From: Siphonodentalium dalli
Taxonomy: Eukaryota; Mollusca; Scaphopoda; Gadilida; Siphonodentaliidae
DNA length: 64,000 nt
Direction: 5' to 3'
NCBI GenBank assembly: GCA_032622095.1
Contig: CP136068.1
Location: forward strand, 136,593,989-136,657,988
The notes under the pieces are model-generated. The model was not told the origin of the DNA and made no database searches. It saw only the letters and a program-made list of their open reading frames with translations. Below, in pieces: positions 15,901-57,530 of this stretch. The translations under genes and the position numbers were made by a program. Every line of letters starts with the position of its first letter. Position 1 is the first letter of the stretch.

Positions 15901-18293
15901 ACGACAAAAAGAAAATATGAACGATACTGCATGAGGTCATACAAACTACTTATGCGTTTCGTTTAAAAAATTGAGAGAAAAAAATAATAAATTTGAATTT
16001 AGTTTGTGCCCATCAGCCCAAATTTCATGTGATATGTTTCAATTTGGGAAAATATCATCGCCGGTATTCCACAAAGACACTATAATAAATGTTTCGGATA
16101 CGGTTTGTGACTGGCCACAATAAACAAAGTTTTGTGTGAACATTTGTTGGCGCTAATTGACAGTTTCGAGATTGGTTGTTGACCAATTGACGTGCATATA
16201 ACAGCTTTGGTGCAGATAAGAATAGCCATTCTCGCAGTATACAAATGTATATTTTTGCGAAGCAATGGTATAGTGCCACCTTTGGACAAAATGGTGTTTA
16301 TATCGAAACTCCCCATCCAAGATGGCCGCCAAAATGGCAACCATGAGTGAAAAACAATATTGATACATTGGCTCAAAATGTCTGCCAAAATGGTGGCCAA
16401 AATATAGAAAATCCTAGGTATTGACCCAGCGTGGCATGTACTCGGTTATAAGATTGATTTATACAAATTTACTATGTCTTTCATACATTGAATACTAGCA
16501 TTTCTGATGCTACTCGGTTACATGTTGCCATTGTAAATAACAACTAATACCATCAGAATTATTTTATAAGATGTATCAAAAGGGCAGATGCTCAATTTTG
16601 ATGTTTTCTTTTCAAGTAATGCAACTATCTTTGGTACCAATGTGTTTGTTGTTCGATTAAGTGCATGACACTCTTGTGTTTTAGACAAAATTACTCAAAC
16701 ATGCTTGCAATATGGCAACCAAATTTGGTAAAAAACAAATTAAAACTGTTCTCATATATCCGAAAATTATACTTTACTGTTCAGAAAAGACAGCAAATTG
16801 TGCCAAATACTTGGTCATTAAACATGTAACATAATCAACTGGCAAGCACTTTTTCTATTTTGGTTATTCTAGTACCCTATGAGGCATGACACATTGATTT
16901 TAAAGGATGGAGTTTTGCCTATTCTGGCCATTTGCTGATCGTCAATATAGGGAGAACTTCGAAACACATCTGAGATTAACCATAGTATGTAGCGACTCTG
17001 TCCCAATAACAATAGCATCACAATTCTGACACATTGACATCAAAATTTATTGTCTGATGTCAGACAAACCATTCCCTGCATTGTGCATATAACACACCAC
17101 CAACAAGGAGAATAAAAGGCCGCCCGGCCACAGTGTCCCCCGAAACGGTGGCTTCATTTGGAGCTGGGGCCGAACTGAAAACTCAAACTTGATCTGTATT
17201 TTCATATGAATAATCCATTGCAAGTAGGTCGAAACAGGACGAGGAAGGGCATACCTCTGTCAAAATTCCTCGAACTGAATTCTGATTCAATAGGCACCTG
17301 CATGACTGGTTGTAACATATGCATACCATGTTTGAGTGGATTTAGAGAATCAGTACTGGAGTAGTCAACCGGACAACAATAACGTTGAATTTTCTAAGTC
17401 AAACAAGAGCTACGCTGGGCGTGCAAAATACGCCCTCTCTGGGCAAAATTGGCGGATGGAACCCAAATTTGAACTTGACCTGTGTTTTGGTGGGAGAAAG
17501 TAATATACCAAATTATCATTGAATCCGATAAGTTCTAGTAAAGTTATCATCCGGACAACAAATTTCAGGGATTTTCTAAGTCAAATTACGTCAAATAAGG
17601 GGCATAACTCCGGTGAAAATTGGCGGACGGAACCCAAATTCGAACTGGATCTGTCTTTTCTCCTAATAAACCCACATACCAAATTTGATTGAAATCGGTT
17701 CACTCTAACTAAAGTTATCATCCGGACAACAAATTTCAGGGATTTTCTAAGTCAAATTACGTCAAAAAAGGGGCCATAACTCTCGCAAAAATTATCGGAT
17801 TAAAACGAAATTCGGACTTGAGCTGTATTTCGATATATGTAATCCACAAAAAACGGGTTTTGCGTATAAACATTCCAAAATCGAGTTATCATCCGGACAC
17901 CAAACAACATAAGAAAAACTGAATTTTCTGAGTCGAAAAAGGGGCATAACTCTGCCAAAAATGGTCGGACAGTATCCAAATTCGAACTTGACCTGTGTTT
18001 TGGTGGGAGAAAGTAATATACCAAATTTGGATTCATTCCGATAAACTATACTAAAGTTATCATCCGGACAACAAATTTCAAGGATTTTCTAAGTCAAAAA
18101 ACATCAAATAAGGGGCATAACTCCGGTGAAAATTGGCGGGCGGAACCCAAATTCGAACTTGAACTTACTTTTCGGCTAATAAACCCACATACCAAATTTT
18201 ATTAAATTTGGTTAACTCTAACTAAAGTTATCATCCGGAAACCAGGTTAACGAACGCCCGGACGGGGCGGACGGACGGACCAATACTATAATA
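15228..18293. repeat. Segment B, copy 1 of duplicated unit
   Basis: Nearly identical to 21566-24624. It contains the broken gene fragment at its left, AT-rich sequence with CCAAGATGGCCGCC motifs, and an array of ~170-bp units followed by (ACGG)n at the right. Homology to copy 2 begins exactly at the inner edge of the 7.1-kb insertion and is broken at 18293 only because copy 2 carries a Harbinger-like insertion there. Confidence 0.85.
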
Positions 18294-18885
18294 CGGCCGT
18301 TTTTTTAAACAAAACATCGGACAGACCCCAATTCAATAGACAAATGCATGATGGGTTGTAACATATGTGTACTAAGTTTGATTGGATTTGGAGAATCAGT
18401 ACTGGAGTTGCCATCCGGACAACAACAAGGTTTAATTTTCTAAGTCGAAAAAGCGCTATAACTCTGTCAAAAAACATCGGACCGGACCCCAATTCAATAG
18501 GCACCTGTATGACGGGTTGTAACACGTGCGTACCAAGTTGGTTGGATTCGGAGAATCAGTGCTCTAGTTGCCATCCGGACAGCAATTAAATTTAATTTTC
18601 TAAGTCGAAAAAGGGACAAAAATGGCCATAACTCTGTCAAAAATCATCGGACCGAACCCCAATTCAATAGGCACCTGCATGACGCGTTGTAACATACGCA
18701 TACCAAGTTTGATTGGATTCGGAAAATCAGTACTGGAGTTGCCATCCGGACAACAATTGTATTTAAGTTTCTAAGTCGAAAAAGGAACAAAAAGGGCCAT
18801 AACTTTGTCAAAAATCATCCGACCGAACCCCAATTCAATAGGCACCTGCATGACAGGTTGTAACATACGCATACCAAGTTGATGA
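17290..18885. repeat. ~170-bp unit array with (ACGG)n, pearl-like
   Basis: About nine imperfect units each contain variants of CATCCGGACAACAA, TTTTCTAAGTCGAAAAA, GGGCCATAACTCTGTCAAAA and CGGACCGAACCCCAATTC. Units before 18260 resemble one subfamily (CCCACATACCAAATTT) and those after 18300 another (AATAGGCACCTGCATGAC). An ACGG microsatellite, GGCGGACGGACGGACC, sits between them at about 18267-18283. This combination resembles the pearl/CvA-type elements described in bivalves. Confidence 0.7.
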
Positions 18886-18894
18886 TGGTATATT

Positions 18895-19010
18895 ATGTTA
18901 GACGACACCCAAATATCACAGAGATGCGCACAAATGGAGCACCATGGTCACCACTCTTGTATTAGATGATGGAAGCGTTGTGATTACTTTCTTGTCCAAA
19001 TATGATACAG
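18895..19010. repeat. Inverted diverged copy of segment A terminus
   Basis: The complement of this stretch matches 7070-7180: CATCTAATACAAGAGTG, CCATTTGTGCGCATCTCTGTG. It follows directly on the end of the unit array, so it may be the right terminal inverted repeat of the element whose left end is segment A. Confidence 0.5.
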
Positions 19011-19293
19011 CAAGGTATGCTCTATCGAGATGTAACTGCATTTAAACTAAATATTGTAGGCCCTTAAAAGAAATACAGTTATGTCGTGACAGACCATACA
19101 TAGGTCCGGATATAACTAGTGGCCCACGAGGCAACTCACGGCTGATCATACCGTTTACATATTTTAACGATTTTCGGGGATTTTTCCATTTCCGGTGCCA
19201 TTCTGGCCGCCATCTTGGATTTGGTTGAATATTCCTCAACCCATATATAAGTGTAATCGTAGCAGGGGCATATCCTGCACGTGTACATGCATG

Positions 19294-19410
19294 GGTGCAC
19301 AGGTCCCCAGAACAAAAAATTGACCCCACACCCAACAATACTTAATTCTATAGGATTAAGTATTGTTGGGGTGGGGTAAATTTTTTTTGTTCTGGGGACC
19401 TGTGCATGGG
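19294..19410. repeat. ~50-bp-arm hairpin
   Basis: The left arm GTGCACAGGTCCCCAGAACA ... CCCAACAATACTTAAT is answered on the right by ATTAAGTATTGTTGGGGTGG ... TGTTCTGGGGACCTGTGCA around an ~8-base centre. It is probably a small foldback or MITE relic. Confidence 0.7.
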
Positions 19411-20310
19411 TGTAGTTATGGCAATAGCGCCCACTTATTCGAAACAGACAATGCGTGATTAGCGTCGATTTGGCGTTGATCGGATTATACCGGTATTTGA
19501 AAAAAAGTGATGTGATGAAATGTCGAATATATTGTATTTTTTTTCTTCGGATAATTTGTATGCGCTGTATATTAGCATAACGAATCGAGTTGAAAATAAA
19601 ACCGCCTTCGATATTATTTCCTATAATGGCGATCAAAGAGACCGGGTGCAATTAAAACAAAATGGTTGCCATCTTGTCTGCAGTCTATGTGACTATTTTT
19701 TCCCTGTTGACAAGTGAACAAAATTTAGGGGAGACTTTTACGAAGAAAATAAGTCTGAGACATTCTAAATATTCAACCCACCCGATCCAAAATGGCCGCC
19801 GTTCGGGGGGGGGGGTCTTAAAATAAGGGACTAATCTAGGTCAACGGGTTTGTAGTTTTTTTCTTTGAGGGCTTAATCGGTCAAGATGACAACAAATGTC
19901 ACGGGTGCCCTATTTGAACCCCTCTTGGCGACCATTATGGATCGGATGGGGTGAATATATAGAATGTATATTGGGGGACCCAAATCGGTCAACAGGTCGA
20001 GAAATGGCATCAGGGTGGGGGTATCGAAAGAGTATTGAGGGCCACCCTACAACATCCTTTATTTGACCAAAATATATTTTTAGAATTCGGAATAATACGG
20101 AAGCGTATGTGTAAAACAGAAATTTGAAAGTCGAAATTTGATCTATTATCTCGCAAATTCAACTTTTTATAAGAAATCTTAACTTTTATCTTGAAATCTT
20201 TACTTTTTGTCTCGAAATATTAACTTATCTCTAAATATTTTAACTTTTGATCTCGAAATTTTAACGTTTTCATCGAAATTTTAAAATTTTATCTCAAAAT
20301 TTTAACTTCC
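19411..20310. repeat. GATCGG-type repeat and 20-bp AT-rich tandem
   Basis: 19790-20060 contains two or three imperfect units with GGCCGCC or GACCATTATGGATCGG, GGGTGAATATATAG and CCACCCTACAACATCCTTTA, related to the array at 38630-39170. 20138-20310 is a run of imperfect CTCGAAATTTTAACTTTTAT units, the complement of the array at 34227-34345. No gene was seen. Confidence 0.6.
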
Positions 20311-21528
20311 AAGATTTTTCTTGAAATTTTAACTATTTTATAACTGAATTTAGACTGCCAGATTTCTTTTATATGTCTTTTAAGGCCATATAAACTTAAT
20401 CACTTCCGTGCTACTAGTAATAACGGTATATTCGGTCAAATCAAATCGGTCAGATCGGTAATCAAGAGATTCGCATAATTGGAAGCGCTATGATCACCCT
20501 CAAGAGGGTGATTATATATAGCACTTTCACCCATCTAACACAAGAGTGATGATTATAGTGCTTCCATTTGTGCACATCTCTGTGTGAGATTTTTGTACCG
20601 TTTGAACGATTATATATACTGTTATTAGCATTAAGGCAGTCTAAATGGGGTTATGTTGTGGCAGAACATACCCAACTGGGACAAGAGGGTGATGATAGCA
20701 CATCTCTGTGTGAGATTTGGTGAGATTTGGTAGGATTTGGCCAAAAATATAATTGTTTTCAACGAAAGTGCTTAATCGTGATAAAATTTCGAGATAAAAA
20801 TTAAAATTAAGATTTTCAAGTGAATTATCCAGAAAGGGCGTACCAATAGCTCCAGAACATGATTCAAGATGCTGATGGTGGTCATGTTTTAAATAAGATT
20901 GGAGGTAAACTTTCCAGCTTTAAATCGACTAGGGGACTGCGTGATTGGTACTGGTGAAAAAGTAAACAAGTTATCGAAACCATGCAGTATCTCTGAAACG
21001 AACATGAAAAACAGATAGACTTTGTTTTTAGAAAATCCTCATTATTTAAAGTTTTCCAGTCACAGATTTCGCATGTTGGCTGAAACCTGTATTGTGCAAA
21101 CATTACTCAAATCTGCAGTGTAGCATAAACAAACACCTGTTTTGTTTACCTAGAACAGATATCGACATGTGATATCTCTTTGATGGAGATATTTTAACAA
21201 TGGAAATACGAACAATATCGATCTACTTTTTCATGTTCTTTTTTGATTACACTGGGTTTGATACCGCCATCACGGAAATTGCTGATGTGGAAAGTGTGGC
21301 AGACTACATTGTATATACAATTAATTGCTGGCTGAAATATGGTCATTTAATATGCAAAGAAGATTAATGGTTGGAACATCATTTATGGAAGTCAAATAAA
21401 ATGTCTATAGAACACTTGTTCGCAGCACAAGAAAGGCGAGCTTCGCACAGAATTTATCAACTGTTCACTCGAGTGTAGAAACAAATCTTGACACACAGCA
21501 TATACTGTACGTATGCCCTTATCTCTGA
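20311..21528. repeat. Segment A, copy 2
   Basis: Direct near-identical copy of 6901-8118. Here it joins segment B across 37 bp (21529-21565) instead of 7.1 kb. Confidence 0.85.
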
Positions 21529-21565
21529 GCGGTTCTTAGCTGACAGTTATGATTTAAATTTGATC

Positions 21566-24500
21566 ATGAGGGGTCACTTCGGGGATTTCAACGTTTTCCG
21601 GATCAGAATGAGCTTCTTCGGGTCTTTGTTCCACCGGAGCAAGTTGAGCTGATTCCGTTTTTGATTTCGTCTGGCCCAAGTCTTATCTTCGACCAGATAG
21701 AACCGTATGCGTGGGAGTTTTGTTTTTTTCGTATATTTCACCAACAGTAACATCTACCGGTAAGATCCTGTCTTGAAAGTCCCACATTTCCCATTTGGAG
21801 TCGTGTTTATCCTCTTGCATGAACAACTTTTTAGCCTCGCGAATCAATACTTCTGTGTTGGCAGACTTGCTCACACTTAGCTTCCTGGTTCCACCCCCTT
21901 TTGTAGTTCGCAGCTGAATGTATGCTTCCTTCGTCTTGTCGAAAACCTTTCGCCCTAGCTCTATAATTCGTGTATCTTTTTGTGCGTTTTGTGAGCCACC
22001 ATTATCCACTTAATCTCCACTGCTCGCCAGTGAGTCCGTGTCAGACGAATTCGGATTCGACATCTTCAATTTCTTCCTCAATCGTTTTAAAACGGATTTT
22101 CCCCTGTTGTTGCTCTTTGTACGTGTCGCGAGCTTCTTGCAGAATTTCTTCACAGCAACCCTGTCGCATTTTCTCGGAATGTACACTTTAAGCTCATCAT
22201 CATCCAAACTAAGTATGGTGTGGACGTCTATCTGCAAACGACAAAAAGAAAATATGAACGATACTGCATGAGGTCATACAAACTACTTATGCTTTTCGTT
22301 TAAAAAATTGAGCGAAAAAATAATAAATTTGAATTTAGTTTGTGCCCATCAGCCCAAATTTCATGTGATATGTTTCAATTTGGGAAAATATCATCGCCGG
22401 TATTCCACAAAGACACTATAATAAATGTTTCGGATACGGTTTGTGACTGGCCACAATAAACAAAGTTTTGTGTGAACATTGGTTGGCGCTAATTGGCAGT
22501 TTCGAGATTGGTTGTTGACCAATTGACGTGCATATAACAGCATTGGTGCAGATAAGAATAGGCATTCTCGCAGTATACAAATGTATATTTTTGCGAAGCA
22601 ATGGTATAGTGCCACCTTTGGACAAAATGGTGTTTATATCGAAACTCCCCATCCAAGATGGCCGCCAAAATGGCAACCATGAGTGAAAAACAATATTGAT
22701 ACATTGGCTCAAAATGTCTGCCAAAATGGTGGCCAAAATATAGAAAATCCTAGGTATTGACCTAGCGTGGCATGTACTCGGTTATAAGATTGATTTATAC
22801 AAATTTACTATGTCTTTCATACATTGAATACTAGCATTTCTGATGCTACTCGGTTACATGTTGCCAATGTAAATAACAACTAATACCATCAGAATTATTT
22901 TATAAGATGTATCAAAAGGGCAGATGCTCAATTTTGATGTTTTCTTTTCAAGTAATGCAACTATCTTTGGTACCAATGTGTTTGTTGTTCGATCAAGTGC
23001 ATGACACTCTTGTGTTTTAGACAAAATTACTCAAAAATGCTTGCAATATGGCAACCAAATTTGGTATAAAAAAAATAAAACTGTTCTCATATATCCGAAA
23101 ATTATACTTTACTGTTCAGAAAAGACAGCAAATTGTGCCAAATACTTGGTCATTAAACATGTAACATAATCAACTGGCAAGCACTTTTTCTATTTTGGTT
23201 ATTCTAGTACCCTATGAGGCATGACACATTGATTTTAAAGGATGGAGTTTTGCCTATTCTGGCCATTTGCTGATCGTCAATATAGGGAGAACTTCGAAAC
23301 ACATCTGATATTAACCATAGTATGTAGCGACTATGGCCCAATAACAATAGCATCACAATTCTGACACATTGACATCAAAATTTCTTGTCTGATGTCAGAC
23401 AAACCATTCCCTGCATTGTGCATATAACACACCACCAACAAGGAGAATAAAAGGCCGCCCGGCCACAGTGTTCCCCGAAACGGTGGCTTCATTTGGAGCT
23501 GGGGCCGAACTGAAAACTCAAACTTGATCTGTATTTTCATATGAATAATCCATGTAGGTCGAAAAAGGACGAGGAAGGGCATACCTCTGTCAAAATTCCT
23601 CGAACTGAATCCTGATTCAATAGGCACCTGCATGACTGGTTGTAACATATGCATACCATGTTTGAGTGGATTTAGAGAATCAGTACTGGAGTAGTCAACC
23701 GATCAACAATAACGTTGAATTTTCTAAGTCAAACAAGAGCTACGCTGGGCGTGCAAAATACGCCCTCTCTGGGCAAAATTGGCGGATGGAACCCAAATTT
23801 GAACTTGACCTGTGTTTTTGGTGGGAGAAAGTAATATACCAAATTATCATTGAATCCGATAAGTTCTAGTAAAGTTATCATCCGGACAACAAATTTCAGG
23901 GATTTTCTAAGTCAAATTACGTCAAATAAGGGGCATAACTCCGGTGAAAATTGGCGGACGGAACCCAAATTCGAACTTGAGTTGTCTTTTCTCCTAATAA
24001 ACCCACATACCAAATTTGATTGAAATCGGTTCACTTTAACTAAAGTTATCATCCGGACAACAAATTTCAGGGATTTTCTAAGTCAAATTACGTCAAAAAA
24101 GGGGCCATAACTCTCGCAAAAATTATCGGATTAAAACGAAATTCGGACTTGAGCTGTATTTCGATATATGTAATCCACAAAAAAACGGGTTTTGCGTATA
24201 AACATTCCAAAATCGAGTTATCATCCGGACACCAAAAAAACATAAGAAAAACTGAATTTTCTGAGTCGAAAAAGGGGCACAACTCTGCCAAAAATGGTCG
24301 GACAGAACCCAAGTTCGAACTTGACCTGTGTTTTGGTGGGAGAAAGTAATATACCAAATTTGGATTCATTCCGATAAACTATACTAAAGTTATCATCCGG
24401 ACAACAAATTTCAAGGATTTTCTAAGTCAAAAAACGTCAAATAAGGGGCATAACTCCGGTGAAAATTGGCGGGCGGAACCCAACTTCGAACTTGAACTTA

Positions 24501-24624
24501 CTTTTCGGCTAATAAACCCACATACCAAATTTTAATAAATTTGGTTGACTCTAACTAAAGTTATCATCCGGAAACCAGGTTAACGAACGCCCGGACGAAC
24601 GGACGGACGGACGGACCAATACTA
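21566..24624. repeat. Segment B, copy 2
   Basis: Direct near-identical copy of 15228-18293 with scattered substitutions and small indels. The ~170-bp unit array occupies about 23600-24590 and ends in (ACGG)n near 24596-24616. It is interrupted at 24628 by a Harbinger-like insertion and resumes at 27103. Confidence 0.85.
21683..22237 (-). pseudogene. Broken gene fragment, GGGTR-domain family (copy 2)
   Basis: This is the second copy of the fragment at 15162-15900. It shares the same AG-preceded start, the same in-frame TAA (22010-22012) between the SAM-like and GGGTR-containing blocks, and the same apparent extra base after YEK, so both defects predate the duplication. It also has a private one-base deletion (GTCTTATCTTCG here, GTCTTTGTCTTCG in copy 1) that closes the downstream frame early. 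Differences such as DKTKEA for DKKKEA and LFMQEDK for FFMKEDK show ordinary drift. Confidence 0.5.
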
Positions 24625-24627
24625 TAA

Positions 24628-27102
24628 AGCTAGCCACACATGCTTGCGTATGCGTATGGTGCGTTGCGTTATTTTTATCGCATGCGATTGTCGGATAGAA
24701 AATCAAGTAGAAATGCACGGGCACCCACACATGCATGCGGTTCCGATGCGAAACTATTCTGACGCTCCGAATGCCTCCGATTTTTATCGGACCGAAAATA
24801 CTCGTATTTTCCATCCGATAGAATTCGTCGCTCCGTTTGCGTTCGCAGCGGAATTCCCAATTATTTATGACGTCATCCTGGAAAAGGCGCGATTTTTCAA
24901 AGTAATAAAACATGCCGCGAATTAGATCTACTCCCATAACACCACAAGAAGTGAAAGATTTGTGCCTTTCTAGTTAAACCCCGGGTCTATCTGTACATGT
25001 ATGTGTGCCAGCATGTGGACTACGAAAGCCAGAAATCATTTAATGCGTGGCAGGATATTTCCTAGTTCTAAGATCAGTGGGTTTTTTCAATTTACAAGTA
25101 CTGACCATGTAATGTTGTTTGTAAGCATGTTAGTACCATGTTTGTTGGTATAGGGCTATATAGGCAGCTATATAGACTCTTTAGTCTCAGATTTAGCAAC
25201 ATTCTGGATTTCACAGGATCCCGGCCCACTTCACAGTGGACCACCGTAATAGCGTTCAGGAAACTTATGATCAACGGAAGAACTATTTAGTAACACAAAT
25301 AATATATTACCCAGTTGTATTACCTGAATAAAAGTTATAAAATAAAAAAAACTGTATCACAAATTGGATACTACATGATGAATACTCAATGATGACTAGA
25401 TATCATTAACCTGATTGTGCATATTAAACATGAAATTGAAAAGGGTATCTCATAAATTTCTAATGTCTGAAATACTGTCTTGTTCTGGCATGTAATCAAA
25501 TTCATTCCTTCTGGTTATTTCTCATCTAGATTGATTGCAAATAATGTCAACACTTATCCAAATAAAACTGAATTGGTTATGAATGACCGTTACTGTTTAG
25601 TGCTCACACAATCCCAACTGAAGGTGACGCTATTCTCATTGAATTTCCGAACTTCATCTTGGATCGTTACTGCTCAACAAGACTAAACTAAAATACTAGT
25701 TGTATACTGTTATCGCTTACAAATAGATGAACTTAAATAATGTGATGCATTCAGATGCATTGAGAAATGGCATTCTTCAATATCTTCAAAGTTCAAACTA
25801 AAAGTAAAACCAAGAATAAAATCTGACTGAGACTATACTGCAGACTCTAGTGCACAAATGTACATATGGTTGAGTTATAATAATGCAAAATGTGTTTACG
25901 GATGGAACAAGGCCGGTAACTCTGGTATGCATTGACAGGGGAAACCTGTGATATGCAGTAATACATGTATGTGCATACATCCTTCCTCTGGTCTATCACC
26001 ACAAAATTCGACAACCGACACTTCAACTTATATTGCAAAAACATTGTACGGACTGAATTTCATAAAGTCGAACAGGGCCCATAACTCTGGTAGGCATTGG
26101 TGCATGCTCACAACCCGTGATATTATGCATATTCGTTCCCCATTTCTGGTCCTTCACAATGCCATAGAGCATCAAAATATGACAATCGACTCTTGAGTTA
26201 TAATGCAAAATGTTTGTACGGACGGACGCACGGATGGCTCGAGACGTCAGCTATATACCCGCCGACTAATATCGGGGGTATAATAACCATATATCTATGT
26301 GTATACCTAACCAAAAACAATTCCCCTCTCCCACCCCACCCCGGTGGATAAGACTAAAAAGTTCTTTGGTCATGCATAAGTAATTGTACAACCCCTGACC
26401 TGTTACCACTATTTACACTGATCAGTGTTCTCTGTCAGACACAACACACTCGCTATATTAATTAAGGCTATAATGGGGTCTAGGGCGATTTGTGACATAA
26501 AGTGTACCTACACTATATGCTTTATTATTGTTGTTAGATACTGAAAACACCAGGAAACACATGGAAATAGTTTCGTTTTTATGATCTGTGTTTACCAATT
26601 AAGCACGTTATTGCTTGAGTCTTAATTTTACACAGCAAGAGTTTGCACCAAAACAGGATAGTGGAATGGGATTGAAAGGCAGTTAACACTATTATTGAAG
26701 AACGGCTAAAAAAAACTCTGAAATTTTGATAAAAACATGAGAAAGGGGGTGAGTCCCCAAATTTTGGAGGAAAACAAATGCACAAATGGGGTGGTGGGTC
26801 CCTCGGGGTCGGGGGGGGGGAAATTGGGCCCTATATGTGCAATTGTTTTCCAGACCCCCTGAGAATTAAGATCGTTTATTTCTTAACCTCCTATGGTAAT
26901 GATACACAGCAACACTCACTAACAATTCTTCCTCCTGTAAATCCATCGTGAAGTGACTGAAACAATCACTATCGGACAACGTTCGCATGACCCCAACGGA
27001 ACGATAACGCAAACATGTGTGGGTACTTTCGCACGACGAACGGATCCGATGAACGGATCCGATGATTTTCGCTAACGCATACGCAAGCATGTGTGGCTAG
27101 CT
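24628..27102. mobile_element. Harbinger-like DNA transposon, non-autonomous
   Basis: Terminal inverted repeats of about 28 bp start AGCTAGCCACACATGCTTGC and are matched at the right end by their complement. TAA flanks both ends (24625-24627 and 27103-27105), and copy 1 of the host repeat supplies the empty site (ACTATAATACGG near 18288) with a single TAA. A 3-bp TWA duplication is the PIF/Harbinger hallmark. The interior (2.5 kb) shows no nuclease or Myb-like frame. It holds a decayed ~220-bp tandem repeat (about 25850-26280, with TAACTCTGGTA and TGAGTTATAATGCAAAATGT) and a G10 tract at 26811. Confidence 0.8.
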
Positions 27103-27660
27103 TAATACGGCCGTTTTTTCAAACAAAACATCGGACCGACCCCAATTCAATAGACACATGCATGATGGGTTGTAACATATGTGTACTAAGTTTGATTGGA
27201 TTTGGAGAATCAGTACTGGAGTTGCCATCCGGACAACAACAAAGTTTAATTTTCTAAGTCGAAAAAGGGCTATAACTCTGTCAAAAAACATCGGACCGGA
27301 CCCCAATTCAATAGGCACCTGTATGACGGGTTGTAACACGTGCGTACCAAGTTGGTTGGATTCGGAGAATCAGTGCTCTAGTTGCCATCCGGACAGCAAT
27401 TAAATTTAATTTTCTAAGTCGAAAAAGGGACAAAAATGGCCATAACTCTGTCAAAAATCATTGGACCGGACCCCAATTCAATAGGCACCTGCATGACGTG
27501 TTGTAACACGTGCGTACCAAGTTTTATTGGATTCGGAAAATCAGTTCTGGAGTTGCCATCCGGACAACAATTAAATTAAATTTTCTAAGTCGAAAAAGGG
27601 ACAAAAAAGGGCCATAACTCTGTCAAAAATCATCGGACCGAACCCCAATTAGGTAGGCAC
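27103..27660. repeat. Unit array of copy 2, right part
   Basis: Continuation of the pearl-like array beyond the Harbinger insertion, homologous to 18288-18880. Three ~170-bp units with GGCACCTGTATGACGGGTTG, GTTGCCATCCGGACA and CCATAACTCTGTCAAAAATC. A terminal tract GGACGGACGGACAGACGG follows near 27739-27756. Confidence 0.75.
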
Positions 27661-30600
27661 CTAGTCAACCAGTAGTTACACCTCCATACCAAATTTCAGG
27701 ATGATCGAATAATGAGAACTGAATGAGAATGGGCGTTTCGGACGGACGGACAGACGGATGTCTGGACGTACTGGCCAGAGTATACTTGTGGGGTGACCGC
27801 ACATACCCATGAATACTTGTGGGGTGCGATCTTTTGTTTGAGTAACTTGTGGGGTGCAACCCACAACTGACGATTTTTTAAAGAGCGTATTTTTAAAGAG
27901 CGAGTCACATGTGTTTAAAATGCCAATATTAACGCTACAAGTTACAAGTTACTGATTTCTGTTTCTGATCCTGTCCAATGTTTGATAATGCACAGTTATT
28001 GTTCACCGAAAGACTTTCGAAAGTCGACCGGTCGCTATCCATTGTCGCTTCTGAAATACAACACATACAAAGAAAACAAAACGGGACTTGTTTAAAAGTC
28101 AGATAATGACCCCGTGAAGTGGCTGAGACACAGATAATCTTCGCGGACTTGGGTGATTATTTGGCCTCAGACACTTCATTCGGTGAATATCCTTAACTGA
28201 ATGCATGTTGTGGTGGGAATATTGTTGTTAACATATTCACCTCCGTAACTCCGTCAAAAACAGCTACAAACTGCGATGAACAGAACGAGATTAACTGTTC
28301 TTCAGGGCCACTAAACTCGGTCACGTGATGGGTAACGAAACACTCATAACTGTGACAAATCGCTAATTCTCGCTTCCGATGCTTATTTATCGAAAACAAC
28401 AAATATTCTTGTTGTGCCATATTAGCGAAAGAAGAACTATATATTTCTTGTGTCCATTGAACAAAACCGCTTTTAGAAATATAATCCCGTATAAAGCTGA
28501 TGCCTCGCACAAATTTCAATCTCTTACTTTTCATCCATTTTCGCGCTGGTGGCTTTTATTGATAACGCCAACACATTTATCCCAATTTCACCAGTAAGAA
28601 GCATCAGAGCTTTATTTAGAGCATTTGTCCATCCGGTATCGTAGTCAAAATTTGAGAAACATATTTCTGCATGGTTTTCAAAATATATCTTGAAAGTGTG
28701 CGCACCTATCCACTCTCTGTGTCTTCAAATGCAATATTGGTAACGCTCGAACAACAGACGAGGCATGATAACGCCCGCATAGTAGCTATATTAATATGGA
28801 ACGAAGCCGAGAACGCCTACGAGCAATGAAGAATTATACCATCGGACAATATTGCAGGGATGTAGTCATACATATATGGAACAGGATATCTTTACGATCT
28901 ATTATTTATTTACAATAGAAACAAGGAACGAATTCCCCCGTTACAAACACAAATACTTTGTGGAACGTGTCATTATCAGAGCTGTGGGAAACCAGTTATA
29001 TTATACTGCAATCCAAACCTAATTGTGTCCAGAAAAAAACGTGTTATGAACCGGGACCGATAAATGTTTCGGGGCACTGCATATTGTTCTTTTTTCGGGG
29101 AGATGGTCAAAGTTTTAATTTCCAATTACACCTGGCAGATATAAAAATTTAAAATTTAAAATACTCAATTTGTACCCCACTAGTTGTAATTATCCACCTG
29201 ATCCCTCACGTTTTCCAATAGATGGAAAAGTCCACGTCACAAACGAAACTTGAAGAAAATATTCTAATCTCGATCTAAAACGACATAATTATATTATACT
29301 ATAAAGAATGGCGGAAAGTCAAACTATCGGTGCAATCTCAACACATGTTCGGTCTGAAGTATCTGGCTGATGTGCCCCTTATATTATATCACCATAACCC
29401 TACGGTACATTTGACTCCTCACCACATATCCGAGTTACAATTGTTGCAAAATCGTTCACATACAAATTCCACACCATTGTATTCAATAACAAAATTACCA
29501 TAGGTCGTTTGTTGAATTTGGTATCTGAACATTTACCACCAATGATAAATTCAACTAATTTAATTTCCTCAATTAGTCTAAAATGCATCCAAGGAACAAA
29601 AAGTCAAACCTATCGCTCAACAGAACTAAAAGATGTAAACCATTATTCATAAAGATCAGGACTGTCATAGCAGAAAGAGATTAAGTGAGTGTATAATTTC
29701 ACCGTACCCTATACGGACAAGTCAGAAATACACAGACGTCCTAAAAAAGAGAGACAATGATCTGCAATGATGACGAATATATTGTCTACATCATCAAAGA
29801 TATCTGCGGAAGCCATAAAATAGCCAACTATAAGTCAAAGCTGGAGGAAAAGTTGTTCAATGTTCCTGAACCTATATGTGCCAGATCCCGGATTTAAATT
29901 CATCAGCAGCTGACCGACAGGGGAGAGGAGCCTCATGCACTAAGTTTGGTAACTTGTGCTCCCATCCCCTGTGTACCACAACATTGTTTATAAATTCTGT
30001 GTTACGTACAATATTCCATGTCTATGTGGGTCACAATTAATATATTCAAACAAAGATCCCGGAAGAAACTTCAGAATTGATCATCATTGATGGGGCTGAT
30101 TTCAGATGTATATAAAGCGCTACAAGGTCATATAGACGCCCGCGCCCTGGGAACCCATTCAAACTGGGGGAAGACGCAACCAATTCTATAACAGGGCACT
30201 GCCCGCCACCAATATAATTACAAATTCACTTTCAGAAGCTAGCGCTCATGTCATACACATTCCACTCACCTAACAACACCAACCAAGCGGGATCCGGCTT
30301 GAAAACCGACCCAGCACTAGCTTGGGGTGGGGTGCAGGATCTACAGACCCATAAGTGGTCATAGCTCTCAACGAGTTAGGAACGACATATACCAAAATAT
30401 GATCGTCCCGCTTGCCGCTTGCCGCTCTGAGTAGGGCGGTTCACGGCTCAAGAATAGAACACACTGAAATGTACAAAATGTATACAAATTTTAACAAAAT
30501 AAAGAAATTACCAAAAAAAATATAAAACCAAAAAATCTATTGAATGTAACCATGTAATCATATATATCTCTGTACAAAACCATTCACATCGTCAACAATT

Positions 30601-50231: not shown

Positions 50232-50962
50232 TAGTGTTCGGAATTCGACGGATTTCGGTATTCGAATATTCGGTTCGAATAACGAGTGAATATTCGAATA
50301 GTATTCGAATATTTAGATAAATTATAAAATTATATAGATAACATATTTTGGAACCAATTTATCATTTAATGAAATAGCATATTTATCCATGCACACGCTA
50401 TACGCAAAAAAGAGAGGGGAAAAAAGTATTTTGGCTTAATAGCAAGAATTTATCTGTTTACGAAGTTCAAGTAGTCAATGTCCCATGCATGGTTCCACAA
50501 GTTGGTCGTAGTGTCACAATAACTAAGAACATGATCTGGATTGAGCTTGCATGTTGTCTTTTTAGTTTTGGCATCCAACGTGAAGTGAGTCCATATATCT
50601 GATTTCTTCGAATTTGACGCCATATTATACACACAAGTGACAACGCGCAAACAAAACAAAACGATGCCTTATAGGTCCGCTTCCTATGAACACATGCAAG
50701 CACGGTCTGGTTTACACCCAGCCAATAAAATTATTTCGACGTCATGACGCTAATCAAATCAGAACGTTACAGTTACGTCATATTAATTCGTTTATGGTCA
50801 GTGGAAAATAGACTATACTTTTAACAGACGCTCAGACTAATAAAAAGCCAGGAAACAATTACCCGGAGATTATTCTCGAATATTCGAATAGTCAAATCAT
50901 TATTCGAATATTTATTTTTACGCGCGAATATTCGAACATTCGAATATTCGGACCGAACACTA
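50232..50962. mobile_element. hAT-like element, non-autonomous
   Basis: Terminal inverted repeats start TAGTGTTCGG (50232-50241) and end CCGAACACTA (50953-50962). The 8-bp target duplication CTGAGAGT flanks both sides (50224-50231 and 50963-50970). An 8-bp duplication and TAGTG-type ends are hAT hallmarks. Subterminal TTCGAATATTCG repeats crowd both ends. At 731 bp it cannot encode a full transposase, but it keeps a BED-finger relic. Confidence 0.85.
50450..50623 (-). pseudogene. BED zinc-finger relic of hAT transposase
   Basis: A 57-residue frame from the ATG at 50623 reads SDIWTHFTLDAKTKKTTCKL, then TTTNLWNHAWD, the layout of a BED finger (W-x2-F, C-x2-C, T-x-N-L-x2-H-x3-5-H) that binds transposon ends. 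The second cysteine is replaced (CKLN) and the final histidine is missing, so two of four zinc ligands are lost. The rest of the transposase (RNase H-like core and dimerisation region) is absent. This points to descent by internal deletion from an autonomous hAT element. Confidence 0.65.
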
Positions 50963-51311
50963 CTGAGAGTGATCTGAATATTTCGGTTTCTGATCGTGTT
51001 ATGGGTGCTATTAATTCCGTTATGGGTGGTTATAATATTGATAACGTTTTAAATTGTGCTACAGATGATACCACAAATATCAATGGTAATGATTACCGCG
51101 AAGTAATCTCTAAGTCTTCTGTTTCTGTTGGAACAGTTAAAAATGATTTCACTGATGGTTGGAATGATGATATAGCTGGTAATTACAATTCAACTTGGAA
51201 TGCAAAACACATTAAAAGCAATACCAACTCTGTTCATGGAAACGATGATTACGAATATGAACTCACACGACAGCGGATAATTCACTACCCGAATTATGAA
51301 TCGATTAAGAG

Positions 51312-52565
51312 GGTTACGTAGCGATTCTCCGAAGACCCATAACTCCGAAGGTCCTATTCTCCGAAGGTCCGATTCTCCGACGCCCCGATTCTCCGAAAGC
51401 CCATAACTCCGAAGTCCCGATTCTCCGAAATCCCATAACTCCGAAAGCCCATAACTCGGAAGGCCTATAACTCCGAACGCCCATAGCTCCGAAGGTCTAT
51501 AACTCCGGAAGGCCGATTCTCCGAAGGTCCGATTCTCCGAAGATCATGTTTTATCGCTTATTAAATAGTGTACAGTCCAGTGGCGGGGTCAATGGGGCAC
51601 TATGGAAGACCCCCCCCCCAAAACATGTCAAATGTCATGTAAACGTCCGGAAATCCCTCCTAGGCATTCAAATATTCACAGCGTTCCTGCCCAGGGGAGC
51701 CCCCGGACCAACGATTGGGGGCGACCCCTCCCATGCATGCGCTCCCCAAATCAGGCCTTCGTGATATGCTTTCGGCATATAATATGCATGATATATCCCC
51801 CACATATCCCCCACATATGCTAATTAATGTGCACCCCTAAATGGGAACCCTGGCTCCGCCACTGGTGTGCACCGGGTATATTATAACGAAACGCTGCAAG
51901 AATGTCAGAGTAGCCTAACATGCACAGGGGCGAACGGGGGACAAAGGGGCAGAACTCGCCCTTTTTTCTGGCGACTGAAAATACTTCAAAGAAATGCGTT
52001 CTGTTTGATCTCGGGATGCTGACGTCACACTTTCATTTCCTGCCACAATATGTCTCTGGTGTATAGTCAGTGGCGGACCAGGATTCCCATTTAGGTGGGG
52101 GCAGTAGGAAAAGAATATTTTGATGCCTCATGAACGATTTCCGGGCGTTTACATGACATTGGACATGTTTTTGGTAGGGGCCCATATTGTCTGAAATAGC
52201 AAGTAGAGGTTTAATGGGGACAGTAGGAATTTTGGGACCCCTTGGCTTCGCCACTGGACTGTACAGTATTTAGTAAACGATAATACCCCGATAAAACAAA
52301 ATCTTCGGAGAATCGAACCTTCGGAGAATCGGACCTTCGGAGTTATGGACCGTCGGAGAATCGGGCCTTCGGAGTTATAGGTCTTCGGAGAATCGGCCCT
52401 TCGGAGGTATAGGTCTTCGGAGTTATGGGTCTTCGGAGAATCGGCCCTTCGGAGTTATGGGCTTTCGGAGAATCGGATCTTCGGAGTTATGGACCGTCGG
52501 AGAATCGGGTCTTCGGAGTTGTGGGCCTTCGTAGTAATAGGTCTTCGGAGAATCGGTCTGACACC
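51312..52565. mobile_element. Fold-back element 1, 16-bp-unit arms
   Basis: The left arm (about 51323-51545) has about 14 units and the right arm (about 52301-52556) about 16 inverted units of 16 bp. Two unit types alternate irregularly: CTTCGGAGAATCGG.. and CTTCGGAGTTATGG... Both arms continue inward into a further ~40-bp inverted match that includes GTACAGTCCAGTGGCG. The outer ends are GGTTACGTAGCGATTCTCC and the complement of ATCGGTCTGACACC. A 9-bp duplication GATTAAGAG/GATTGAGAG flanks it (51303-51311 and 52566-52574). The interior holds CAGTGGCGG...CCGCCACTG elements and no transposase. Confidence 0.8.
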
Positions 52566-52574
52566 GATTGAGAG

Positions 52575-52805
52575 TATGCATACAATCCAAATAATCAAAG
52601 CTGAAAAATCATGTTTCTCTGCTGTACATGAGCATATTTTGTGCGATATTGGTTATTATAATGTTGATAACACTAAATATGGTGATGACGATGATGAGGA
52701 TGGTGATAATGATGCTGATGATGATGATAACGACGACGATGGTGATGATGATGATAATGATAAGGATGATGATAACGACGACGATGATGGTGATGATGAT
52801 GATGG

Positions 52806-52836
<31 letters not shown>

Positions 52837-53170
52837 AATGATGATGATGATGATGATGAAGAAGATGGTGATGAGGATGATAATGATGATGAGGACGTTG
52901 ATAATGATGATTTTGAAGAATATTATGATTATTATTTTGATGACTGTGATTATAGCCATATTGTAAACCCCGAGACCAATCCTCACTTTTCGGAAATATT
53001 GCATGAAGCTTACGAAACAATATATCCGGAAAGAGAGGATTACCGAGAATATACTTCCATGCATGTACGACCCGTCGAAACTTTTAACAATGGAGATAAC
53101 TCTATTCCTGACGCGAGTAATAATGAAATTAATGTACCAGCTGGACAAACAACGATTCATGTCGAGAATG
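52575..53170 (+). pseudogene. LINE acidic linker with Asp-rich tract
   Basis: The frame restored across fold-back element 1 continues with SMHTIQIIKAEKSCF and then enters a tract of about 85 residues that is nearly all Asp with scattered Gly, Asn and Glu, encoded by (GAT)n at about 52680-52920. It then runs into FSEILHEAYETIYPEREDY and the start of the endonuclease. The tract looks like microsatellite expansion inside a naturally acidic segment. Confidence 0.55.
52680..52920 (+). repeat. (GAT)n microsatellite
   Basis: Imperfect GAT/GAC/AAT triplets in the LINE frame encode the Asp-rich tract. The complementary frames give long His or Ile runs, which are artefacts. Confidence 0.9.
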
Positions 53171-53462
53171 TTAAAAATCACGGTATCAGAATATTAATTT
53201 TAAATGTTTGTGGTGTCAGAAAAAAATTGGCCTACCCAGAATTCCAAAATATGTGTGCTAAGCATGATATTATCTGTCTGTCAGAGACAAAGACAGATGG
53301 TTGCGATAATCTTGACTTACCAGGTTTTGTTCTACACATGAAAAATCGCACGAAACTTTCTCGTGTTAAATCTGGTGGAATTATCATTGGAGTAAAATCT
53401 TATTTAGCCTCATCGACACACATACTGCACACAGAATGTCAGTTTATTCACTGGTTGGAAAT

Positions 53463-54709
53463 GGGTAGGGTTCTCTATTCCGAAGGTTCATTATTCCGAA
53501 GGTTCGCTATTCCGAAGGTTTTCCATTCTGGGCGTATTTAACCAGAAATGAATCGAAATCTATTACACTAGTATTCACATATAGTACATGTATACACCGC
53601 TTCTAATTCCCAAATTGTCCCAAGTGTCGGTTAATAATAGCAAGAAGACAGTATCAGTTTATCGTTTATTATGGAAAGTTGAAAACACGATGACAGAAAT
53701 AGACTACATGTAAGAGATATAGTTTGTCCGAACTGGCAATCCGTATTTGAAAGCAACATCAACATTAAAGGCCCACTTAATTTTCGAACCCCCAGATCAC
53801 ATATATAAAATATATGCCAGCATATACATGTGTATACCATTTGAAATTGGAAGCTCTCTAACACTGTATTGTCAGCTTATCCGCGCGGTGTAATAAACTG
53901 TGAACATGTTGTTTTTGTTGAGTTAACGACGTGTTTTTGTTCATCTGGTTTTGTTGCGCAAAGTGTATTATTTTCAATGGAGGGGGAATAACTCTATATT
54001 TTAAAAATAGTGTTATTCCCCTTCAATTGAAAATACTTTAGGTTGAATTCTGTCGCATTATGGTAGCCATAACGGGGGGATCTTTTATGATTTAAGCTGT
54101 TTTCTATTTCTCTATGGGCATCTTCTGATACAGACGTTTCAAATGGTGATGAACTCTAGTATTTGAATCATATTTTATGGCATAGATTGTTATTAAAACC
54201 TGATATCAATGCACTAAAAATAGTCGGTGCCTTAAAATTCAATACAAATTCACAATTGCAGCTATAATTTCATCTCATACCCGTCTATTCAACGACATTC
54301 TGCTACGCATTATTCATTAAGAGTAATAGACTTGCCTGTAAGATTATTGAGATATAAAGTCATACGTGATGACATTAAATCGTATGGAGACATAACAATT
54401 GTTGGGGCTGCCTGACGTGAATATGTATTGGGAAATAACGTAATGACATTAAATCTCAAGGAAACCCGCGAAAAAAAAATCACATTTATTGTTTCAATGT
54501 TTTAAGTTATTTCCTTCATAAAAAGAGTCTTCGTGATAAAGAACTCTCTCAATACTTTAGAATATAGAATTAATCTTTAAAATAACATAAACCTTCGGAA
54601 TAGCGAACCTTCGGAATAGAGAACCTTCGGAATAGCTAACCTTCGGAATAGCGAACCTTCGGAATAGTGAATCTTCGGAATCGCGAACCTTCGAATAGAG
54701 ACATGTTCC
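53463..54709. mobile_element. Fold-back element 2, 16-bp-unit arms
   Basis: The left arm has three and the right arm about seven units of a 16-bp repeat, CCTTCGGAATAGCGAA, in inverted orientation (53475-53522 and 54592-54697). It is flanked by GGTTGGAAAT at 53453-53462 and 54710-54719, a 9- or 10-bp target duplication. Removing it restores the endonuclease frame. It shares the 16-bp period and CTTCGGA core with fold-back element 1 and nearly the same length, so the two are related families. The interior includes a truncated copy of the 614-1053 MITE and no coding sequence. Confidence 0.8.
53769..54050. mobile_element. Truncated copy of the 614-1053 MITE
   Basis: Starts AGGCCCACTTAATTTTCG directly after TTAA (53765-53768), as in the full copy, and matches through GAACCCCCAGATCACAT and the central palindrome GGGGGAATAACTCTAT...ATAGTGTTATTCCCC. 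It lacks the outer right arm. Confidence 0.7.
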
Positions 54710-55339
54710 GGTTGGAAATACAGCAACATGGAGTTAAAATTATACTGGGAGCTGTTTTTGTTCCACCAGAAGGAACTAATAAATATTCATCAAATTCAGC
54801 CTTTAATGAAATTGACGCAGACATTTTACAAGACATTTTACAAAGGCAACGATGTGATAATATTTTCATTACTGGCGATTTCAATGCCCGGACGTCTAAA
54901 AAATTAGACTATATTCCAAACGATGAAAATGATATTGTTACTTATGATAACCACATAACTGCCGAGATGGTGCTAGAAAATTGTGGTTTACCATTAAAGA
55001 GGCATAGCATGGACGCAACGACGAATAGTTTGGGTAAACAATTATTTAATGTTTGCCATCATAATGATTTATTAATATTGAATGGAAGATTGGGAACTGA
55101 CAGTAAAATAAGGTGTTATACAATGTCATGACGCATCAGTTGTAGATTACATGCTTTGTTCTCTAAACGCACTGCCAATGGCCGTAGATTTTATAGTCGG
55201 GGAAGCAAACAACTTATTTTCAGACGTGCATAAAGGTATCTCAACGGAATTAGCAATAAATATAGATCACACTACTTAATTATCTAACGAGGAAACTAAA
55301 ACCTGTCATAAATATAAATGGGACCCATCCAAAAAAACC

Positions 55340-56883
55340 GAGTTCATATGGAATCTTGACCCCATGGAAATTTCAGAATTGCGATCTTTGTTGAACAGTT
55401 GCCCACCTTTTACCACTAATAATACGGAATTTAGTGAAATAGTAGACATAATATCAGAAGTTCTTCTTAAATCGTCACGCGACACATTTGGACCTCCGAT
55501 TAGAAAGCGGAAAGCACGCAAAAAGTACAATAAACCATGGTTTAATTCTGCATGCTGGAAAGCGCGTAAAAATACTGCAAAGCCAAGCGATATCTCATAG
55601 ACTGAAGCAAAACAATAGTTCAAGAAAAATGATGCGTGAAATGAGTAGGAGATACATATATATCTTTATTGCCTCCAATGGTGGATTGCAATTGCAATAC
55701 ATAGGGAGAATATCACACATGAACTATCTAAACTAAAAATAGAAAATTCAAGGAAATTCTGGTCTACACTTAATAAGCGAGATATAACATGTAATAACCC
55801 AGTTGAAATAGACAGATTTGAAGAACACTTCCGAATACTTAATTCTGAATCTATCGCAGATGACTCAGATATACGTATGCTCATTGAGACAAGTAATACA
55901 AACGACGAACTAAACCGACCAATAAGCAAAGAAGAAGTCGTGTTAGCTATCAAAGGTTTAAAGAACAATAAGTCCCCTGGAGAAGATGGAATTATAAACG
56001 AATATATCAAGGCATCCTCTGACACCCTTATCGACAAATATTGTAAAACATTTAATTTAGTCTTCGAATCAGGTTGTGTACCACATATATGGGGAATTGG
56101 AACTATCATCCCGCTCTATAAGAAAAACGGTAATAAGGAAGATCCAAAAAACTACAGACCTATCACGCTTTTAAGAAGCTTCTGCAAATTGTCTACAAAG
56201 ATTCTTTCTAACAGGTTATATTCTTACGTTGAAGAAAGAGAAGTTCTCTGTGAGAACCAGGCGGGTTTCAAAAAGGGTTATTCCACAACTGATAATATTT
56301 TTGTTTTACATATATATGTTAACGGCAATTTCAAAGGTATTTAATAGGAATACGTATTGTGCATTTATTGATTTTGAGAAAGCATTTGATAAGGTGTGGA
56401 GGAAAGGACTATGGCACAAATTCATTAACAATGATATAAATGGAAAACTACTCACGGTTATTAGAAATATATACACAAACATCAAATCAAAGGTTCGTTT
56501 GGGCAAAACAACATCCGATTGTTTCCCATGTTTGTCTGAAGTACGACAAGGTGAAACCTATCGCCCCTACTGTTCTCACTTTACCTCAATGACCTGGAAG
56601 ATTTTCTCAATACGAATGGCGTTCGGGGTTTGTCAAAAATGTCAAAGGATATAGAGACCAATTTGCAGACATATGTCAAATTATTTATTATTGTATATGC
56701 AGACGACACCATACTTATGGCTGAAACACCGTTAAATCTACAGAAAGCACTTAATAGTTTTCAAAAGTACTGTGAGAAGTGGAAGTTAAGTGTTAACATT
56801 GAAAAAAAATATATAATACTGATTTCTAAACGAAGCTCGCCTAAAAATAGAATATTTACATACAATGGACAAACAATTGAGTT
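55340..56883 (+). pseudogene. LINE reverse transcriptase, frameshifted, 3'-truncated
   Basis: 55364-55600 encodes the endonuclease-RT linker (SRDTFGPPIRKRKARKKYN, PWFNSACWKARK). 55877-56344 covers the fingers: IKGLKNNKSPGEDGI, NYRPITLLRSFCKL, ENQAGFKKGYSTTDNIF. A frameshift near 56330 leads to motif A (FIDFEKAFDKVW). A second, just after VRQGE near 56555, leads to SPLLFSLYLNDLEDF. Motif C, YADDTILMAE, lies near 56696. These are the catalytic blocks of a Jockey/CR1-like polymerase that copies its RNA at a nicked target. The sequence stops matching after YNGQTIE at 56883, so thumb and C-terminal parts are missing. Confidence 0.75.
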
Positions 56884-57530
56884 GTGTTCCTTTAATTTTC
56901 AAACACCAGTGCGTTTATTGTATTTCTTTAACATTCATTCAAAATGAGTGCCGTGTGTCCCTTTAGAGCGCATTGTGCTCCTTTAATATTCACACACCAA
57001 TATTACATAACGTCCCTTGTTTCGTGTCACTTTAACTCCTTGAGTGTATTGCCCCTTCTAATGATGTCATAGCGTTGGTACATAGAAGACTGTATAACGC
57101 TATGCCTATGTCTGTATATGTTGTCACATCGTGAGTGTATTGTCCACCTTTAATGGTGTCGTAGCGTGTGTACATATAAGACTGTATAACACTATGTCTA
57201 TATCTGTATGTTTTGGAACATTTAAGAAAGATGTGAAATATAAATGTCAAGACTCAGTTCATTCGTGTAGTAATTTCGTATCAGTTAAACGCTCTTCATT
57301 CGTGTATTACCAACAGGTAAGTTGCACTATTTTTGAAAGCAATCACGATGTGTAAAATTTTCATTAAATTACAATAAACCAAGGGCTAAGGTGTAAAAGG
57401 TTTATTGTCAAATAACCCAGAGTGACTTAATTCACAATGAAGTACAATGCCACTCCACTGTAGATGCGAGATGTATTGTTTGTCCATAGCTTAAGTGTGT
57501 AAACATCACATTTTGCTCGTCACGCTATGA

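Follow-up and report, generated by a model that had tools for sequence, protein, structure and literature searches.

What are the two fold-back structures that interrupt a single LINE copy in the scaphopod Siphonodentalium dalli, and what moves them? Both lie in the window, the 64,000-nucleotide stretch of DNA analysed here. The initial annotation described them as elements with inverted arms of 16-bp units, inserted in one LINE frame, and this description holds. In both elements, here called E1 and E2, 16-bp units that share the core TCCGAA (TTCGGA on the opposite strand) follow one another head to tail and are inverted between the arms, a pattern also picked up by repeat-finding tools. A 599-codon LINE frame runs through both joins once the inserts and one copy of each target duplication are removed. 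The limits first given for E1 stand; E2 ends at 54710, not at 54709. The parts are:

50812..56947, + strand: host LINE copy, outer limits approximate, interrupted by E1, E2 and its own stops
51303..51311, no strand: E1 target duplication, left copy, GATTAAGAG
51312-52565: E1, whole element
51312..51327, + strand: E1 left terminal 16 bp, GGTTACGTAGCGATTC
51328..51541, + strand: E1 left arm, 14 units of 16 bp, core TCCGAA
51542..52302, + strand: E1 interior
52303..52549, - strand: E1 right arm, 16 units, core read TTCGGA on the + strand
52550..52565, - strand: E1 right terminal 16 bp, ending in GGTCTGACACC
52566..52574, no strand: E1 target duplication, right copy, GATTGAGAG, one mismatch
53454..53462, no strand: E2 target duplication, left copy, GTTGGAAAT
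53463-54710: E2, whole element
53463..53516, + strand: E2 left arm, terminal GGGTAGGGTTCTCTAT followed by 3 units
53517..54593, + strand: E2 interior
54594..54710, - strand: E2 right arm, 7 units and terminal ...GAGACATGTTCCG (family: CCC)
54711..54719, no strand: E2 target duplication, right copy, GTTGGAAAT

The window E1 is flanked by a 9-bp duplication with one mismatch (GATTAAGAG/GATTGAGAG), and the window E2 by an exact 9-bp duplication; ten letters match at the latter because this copy ends in G, whereas the family ends in C. The window E2 has three left-arm units; the 23 other copies that retain both ends have five to seven. Other near-full-length E2 copies, among the matches listed, are 82-89% identical to it. 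Thus, the window E2 is a diverged member of its family. Inside the E1 interior are two modules with CAGTGGCG...CGCCACTG ends (51580-51866 and 52070-52257), which we take to resemble hAT-type short elements.

Uninterrupted copies of the host LINE show that both insertions are real. Among the best 40 of 189 candidates, all 38 non-window LINE matches cross the E2 joint unbroken, the best at 96% identity, and the window copy is the sole one that splits. The E1 joint is crossed by 16 of 17 non-window matches, although in 11 of these the crossing extends by only about 24 bases; the remaining match is confined to query positions 1-172. LINE copies near C4:201.03, C9:126.16, C3:205.24 and C3:101.70 Mb are empty at both sites. 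Further frames of the host LINE match reverse transcriptase profiles (one over and two under the Pfam cut-off) and, weakly and under the cut-off, an endonuclease profile. The host LINE frame contains, at 52679-52911, a long GAT/GAC-rich run, that is, an aspartate-rich stretch.

We searched the 2.23-Gb assembly (9 contigs) for further copies, and read the best 40 of 1458 first-look candidates for E1 and 30 of the best 40 among 5284 for E2, a non-random sample that leans to close relatives of the window elements. Both tips were located by script in 32 of the 40 E1 loci and 24 of the 30 E2 loci; the other 8 and 6 were dropped. The check proposed at the outset, for consistent ends and target duplications in many copies, has a positive outcome: ends are fixed and duplications of 8 or 9 bp are the rule. 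Among the 32 E1 copies, 21 have an exact 8-bp duplication, 4 an exact 9-bp duplication, 4 a duplication with one mismatch, and 3 none by the script's test. The corresponding numbers for the 24 E2 copies are 8, 13, 1 and 2. The initial annotation was therefore right that duplications are present, but their size is 8-9 bp rather than 9-10 bp, with no exact 10-bp duplication among the 32 E1 and 24 E2 copies tested. When left and right flanks are shuffled, exact 8-bp matches occur in 0/992 (E1) and 0/552 (E2) pairs, and 9-bp matches in 0/992 and 2/552. The two E2 control matches arise because two copies 14 kb apart (L043, C3:198239951; L049, C3:198225994) share identical flanks and duplication; these probably represent one event, locally duplicated after insertion. 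The duplications of both families fall within the 8-11 bp given for Mutator-like elements (MULEs) in the accessible text of PMC6446971. The tips of all four end types begin with GG. The outer 10 bp are unlike between the two ends of one element, in E1 as in E2, and those of the E1 left tip GGTTACGTAGCGATTC are absent from the E1 right end.

The arms keep a strict register with these tips. From tip to first core the distance is 16 bp at each of the four end types, and only 3 of the 112 ends depart from it: the offset is 16 at 30/32 E1 left ends (two at 17), 32/32 E1 right ends, 24/24 E2 left ends and 23/24 E2 right ends (one at 15). Core-to-core steps are 16 bp in 853/869 and 255/256 cases, by a unit chaining that favours this step where a choice exists. 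Per-position frequencies of TCCGAA in pooled units (0.86-1.00 in E1, 0.98-1.00 in E2) are inflated by the choice of cores, which allowed at most one mismatch to TCCGAA. Some of the ten non-core positions vary, strongly so at 12-15 in E1 and 12-13 in E2. Unit number differs among arms (7-20 in most E1 arms) and changes mostly by whole units. These long, inverted arrays of tandem short repeats, variable in number, are arms of the Foldback type. The order of units differs between the left and right arms of E1 and is much alike among copies of one arm; thus, there seems to be no copying between the two arms.

Which transposase acts on these arms was an open point of the initial annotation, which had suggested Foldback or Mutator-like elements and a search for a larger coding relative. 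Both suggestions are borne out: the same assembly holds relatives that encode a protein with FLYWCH and MULE domains, complete for E1 and, for E2, with one end, the array and part of the interior. A MULE search of the genome, in which the best 150 of 813 candidates were scored, led to four loci that were read first. One (L083, on C3) combines an E1-type array with a 423-codon frame (MULE, E 5.6e-15; FLYWCH, E 3.3e-5); extended by the adjoining piece, it includes the E1 tip and matches E1 consensus positions 11-722 at 89%. The full sequence of this element (C3:79524086-79530184, 6099 bp) was read: it has E1-type arms and a 9-bp duplication, GTCTCAAAC. A second coding relative (C7:200396551-200402565, 6015 bp), with both ends read, has an 8-bp duplication, AGTATGGT, and a 423-codon frame that, as given by the genome search, is without stop and 100% identical to the C3 frame. 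By their span, the arms of these two copies hold 22-29 units. P0001 carries the motifs DGTF (211), CDFEQA (277), CYFH (299) and NHVE (401), which we take, by eye, to be candidate DDE catalytic residues. The E1 transposase has no PDB match at E 0.1, and there is no Pfam match in three other frames of the coding element.

Arrays of this kind are not general among the MULE loci read in this genome. No array lies within about 1.5 kb either side of the other three loci first read (L081, L082 and L084), and of eight 700-bp windows upstream of other MULE hits, one has an E2 array, one an E1 element (L090) and six no array. Thus, many MULEs here are of other kinds or geometry. At first L090 (254158350-254158750) resembled the 5' arm of another coding copy, the third, but this reading was rejected; it belongs to an E1-type element inside that copy's transposase frame (C3:254158109-254160660), with residues 1-135 before and 125-423 after the inserted E1, whose left tip is at 254158498.

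On alignment, the E1 copies are internal-deletion derivatives of the 6.1-kb coding element. In 36 of the 40 E1 loci, the alignment to the C3 copy falls into two blocks separated by a single deletion; 17 pairs of breakpoints occur. Four loci behave differently: L009 aligns as one block to the locus end, L020 aligns partially, and L017 and L018 have an insert but, over the length read, no deletion. Parts of the transposase frame are retained in 7 of the 40 loci, and L009 keeps most of it. The window E1 has its joint at about 52057-52059, which corresponds to positions 882/5376 of the coding copy, and no part of its interior matches the E1 transposase. At 16 of the 17 deletion joints (one with 53 unaligned bases was excluded), the blocks overlap by a mean of 2.1 bp, versus 0.70 for random joints, and 12/16 overlap by at least 2 bp, versus 17% of random joints; these overlaps come from BLAST blocks and may be high. 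They would fit interrupted gap repair. E1 interiors differ by a mean pairwise distance of 3.5% (31 copies), and by 1.4% within the commonest deletion class (36 pairs).

The E2 family has a coding relative of its own. The region at C8:90402450 has an E2 array and an exact E2 tip (92% over 122 bp), beside a frame that is open for 411 codons in the genome search. The 309 codons read match FLYWCH (1.6e-7) and MULE (1.7e-12), and the protein is 52% identical to the E1 transposase over 303 residues. E2 consensus positions 1040-1152, within the interior, match DNA just upstream of the frame (81%, 3e-30):

C8:90400630-90401811: transposase frame, beside DNA that matches the E2 interior

Thus, a MULE domain is tied to E1 by one full element and a second with both ends, and to E2 by the protein together with one end, the array and a portion of the interior; from these sequences, the transposase appears to be identified for E1 and nearly so for E2. 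Both proteins have the arrangement of an N-terminal FLYWCH and a MULE domain that PMC3169594, in its accessible part, gives for the Phantom clade.

Fixed ends, 8/9-bp duplications, empty sites, FLYWCH and MULE relatives and the E1 deletions together lead us to the MULE explanation. We are highly confident that E1 and E2 represent non-autonomous members of two sister Phantom/Muta-type MULE cut-and-paste families with Foldback arms, and we file them, by the features tested, as new families of this type. Within this explanation, E2 might be cross-mobilised by an E1-type transposase rather than its own. Core and register are common to both families, and among the matches listed only one E2-like protein, at 51%, is full-length without a stop. 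We consider this rather unlikely, given that E2 has a coding relative with its own tip, array and interior. The extra stretches in three long E2 copies (L056, L064 and L066) have no match to the E1 transposase.

A different superfamily is far less probable. In the accessible text of PMC8101967, GG tips and duplications of 8 or 9 bp characterise Merlin elements as well. The four GG tips and 8/9-bp duplications seen here first led to a Merlin assignment, which was overturned by the MULE-coding copies: these characteristics are common to the MULEs described here, and are thus not diagnostic. The genome does have 62 matches to DDE_Tnp_IS1595, but the surroundings of the 10 that were read have no 16-bp array, and the fully read E1-type element on C3 and the E2-type relative on C8 encode a MULE protein instead of an IS1595-type transposase. 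A Merlin origin is therefore very improbable. Four of the IS1595-domain matches, evenly spaced at 2.38 kb (G000:C5:261344434-261351953), seemingly form a tandem array of transposase-like genes.

Galileo, of the P superfamily, shares the design of long repeat arms with E1 and E2, but it has a THAP/P transposase and 7-bp duplications. A Foldback of this kind, with a THAP transposase bound to tandem sites, would have arms of the same design, and transposase sites are known within the long repeat arms of Galileo (PMC3688188, accessible part); the transposase found here is nevertheless FLYWCH and MULE, which leaves this explanation hardly any probability. Equally implausible is an origin of the inverted arrays as satellite arrays or through recombination, rather than as transposition units, since, for all that the arms are tandem arrays of variable unit number, the tips are fixed and there are duplications and empty sites.

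Under the MULE explanation, deleted copies would be mobilised in trans by the transposase of coding copies. The FLYWCH domain of this protein may read the repeated TCCGAA-centred unit, a candidate binding site, and each arm would be a row of such putative sites, held in phase at a distance of one unit (16 bp) from the cut. Internal deletions could arise from interrupted gap repair after excision, and unit number might drift via slippage in steps of 16. Reading the arms as putative binding arrays follows the analogy of Galileo; in 2013, tandem repeats of Foldback and Phantom elements as binding sites were untested (PMC3688188, accessible part). More tentatively, and with somewhat less than even confidence, we suggest that the arms are a phased lattice of putative transposase sites with the core TCCGAA and a 16-bp step (approximately 1.5 DNA turns), in which the core-to-cut distance has been kept across transposases that are 52% identical. 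The two families have diverged in part of the unit and in almost the entire interior. If the lattice is real, the FLYWCH domain has coevolved with the unit, and transposase stacking along the arm determines the step. With E1 and E2, recognition of repeated arms by a FLYWCH-MULE transposase can be tested on a natural pair.

Fold-back arms of tandem short units also occur in the Foldback elements of Drosophila and the TU elements of sea urchins, which by description resemble E1 and E2 in arm design. Closer counterparts are Muta1 and Muta5, two MULEs of Aedes aegypti. Muta1, classed as a type 2 Foldback, has 12-bp units with 3-4 bp spacers, that is, a period of 15-16 bp, and 8/9-bp duplications (PMC5225508, accessible part). 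The strict 16-bp period, for which the initial annotation knew of no described family, is thus not wholly new. In the same source, a Muta1 or Muta5 arm comprises an 8-10 bp terminal motif and nine units (15 bp each in Muta5), and both have hundreds of non-autonomous derivatives, which vary in unit number in Muta1. The likeness to E1 and E2 therefore extends to MULE transposase, duplications, terminal motif with tandem units and non-autonomous derivatives, by their published description. In contrast, Muta1 and Muta5 are 3.2-3.5 kb long, versus 6.0-6.1 kb for the E1 coding copies, and their arms have nine units, versus 7-20 in most E1 arms and 22-29 in the coding copies.

Tm1 of Meloidogyne, a Phantom-type MULE, has a FLYWCH and MULE protein, asymmetric tips that lie beyond the inverted part, tandem units of 13-15 bp and duplications of 8-10 bp; its short copies are many, its coding copies few or absent (PMC3169594, accessible part). 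E1 and E2 share the domains, asymmetric tips, tandem units, duplications and prevalence of short copies; they differ in unit length and sequence, in host, and in their transposase, predicted for Tm1 at 496 aa in 7 exons. Motif A1 of Tm1 holds GGTTA, the start of the E1 tip, and motif A2, in the orientation printed in the text of that paper, reads backwards as GGGTAGG, the E2 left tip. This likeness of short motifs might reflect deep conservation of Phantom tips, which is possible. Titles and abstract openings retrieved with the terms searched yielded neither a Foldback family with 16-bp units nor a Merlin of the Foldback type, and an exact search of viral contigs for three E2 units found none.

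Two abundant-looking repeat families (1458 and 5284 first-look candidates, best 40 of each scored) are thus tied to coding relatives, and the graded deletion series resembles those of classical two-component transposon systems. The window also contains other tandem families, with units of 122/137 bp and 160-171 bp, in several separate arrays at 4110-6607 and 17445-27662.
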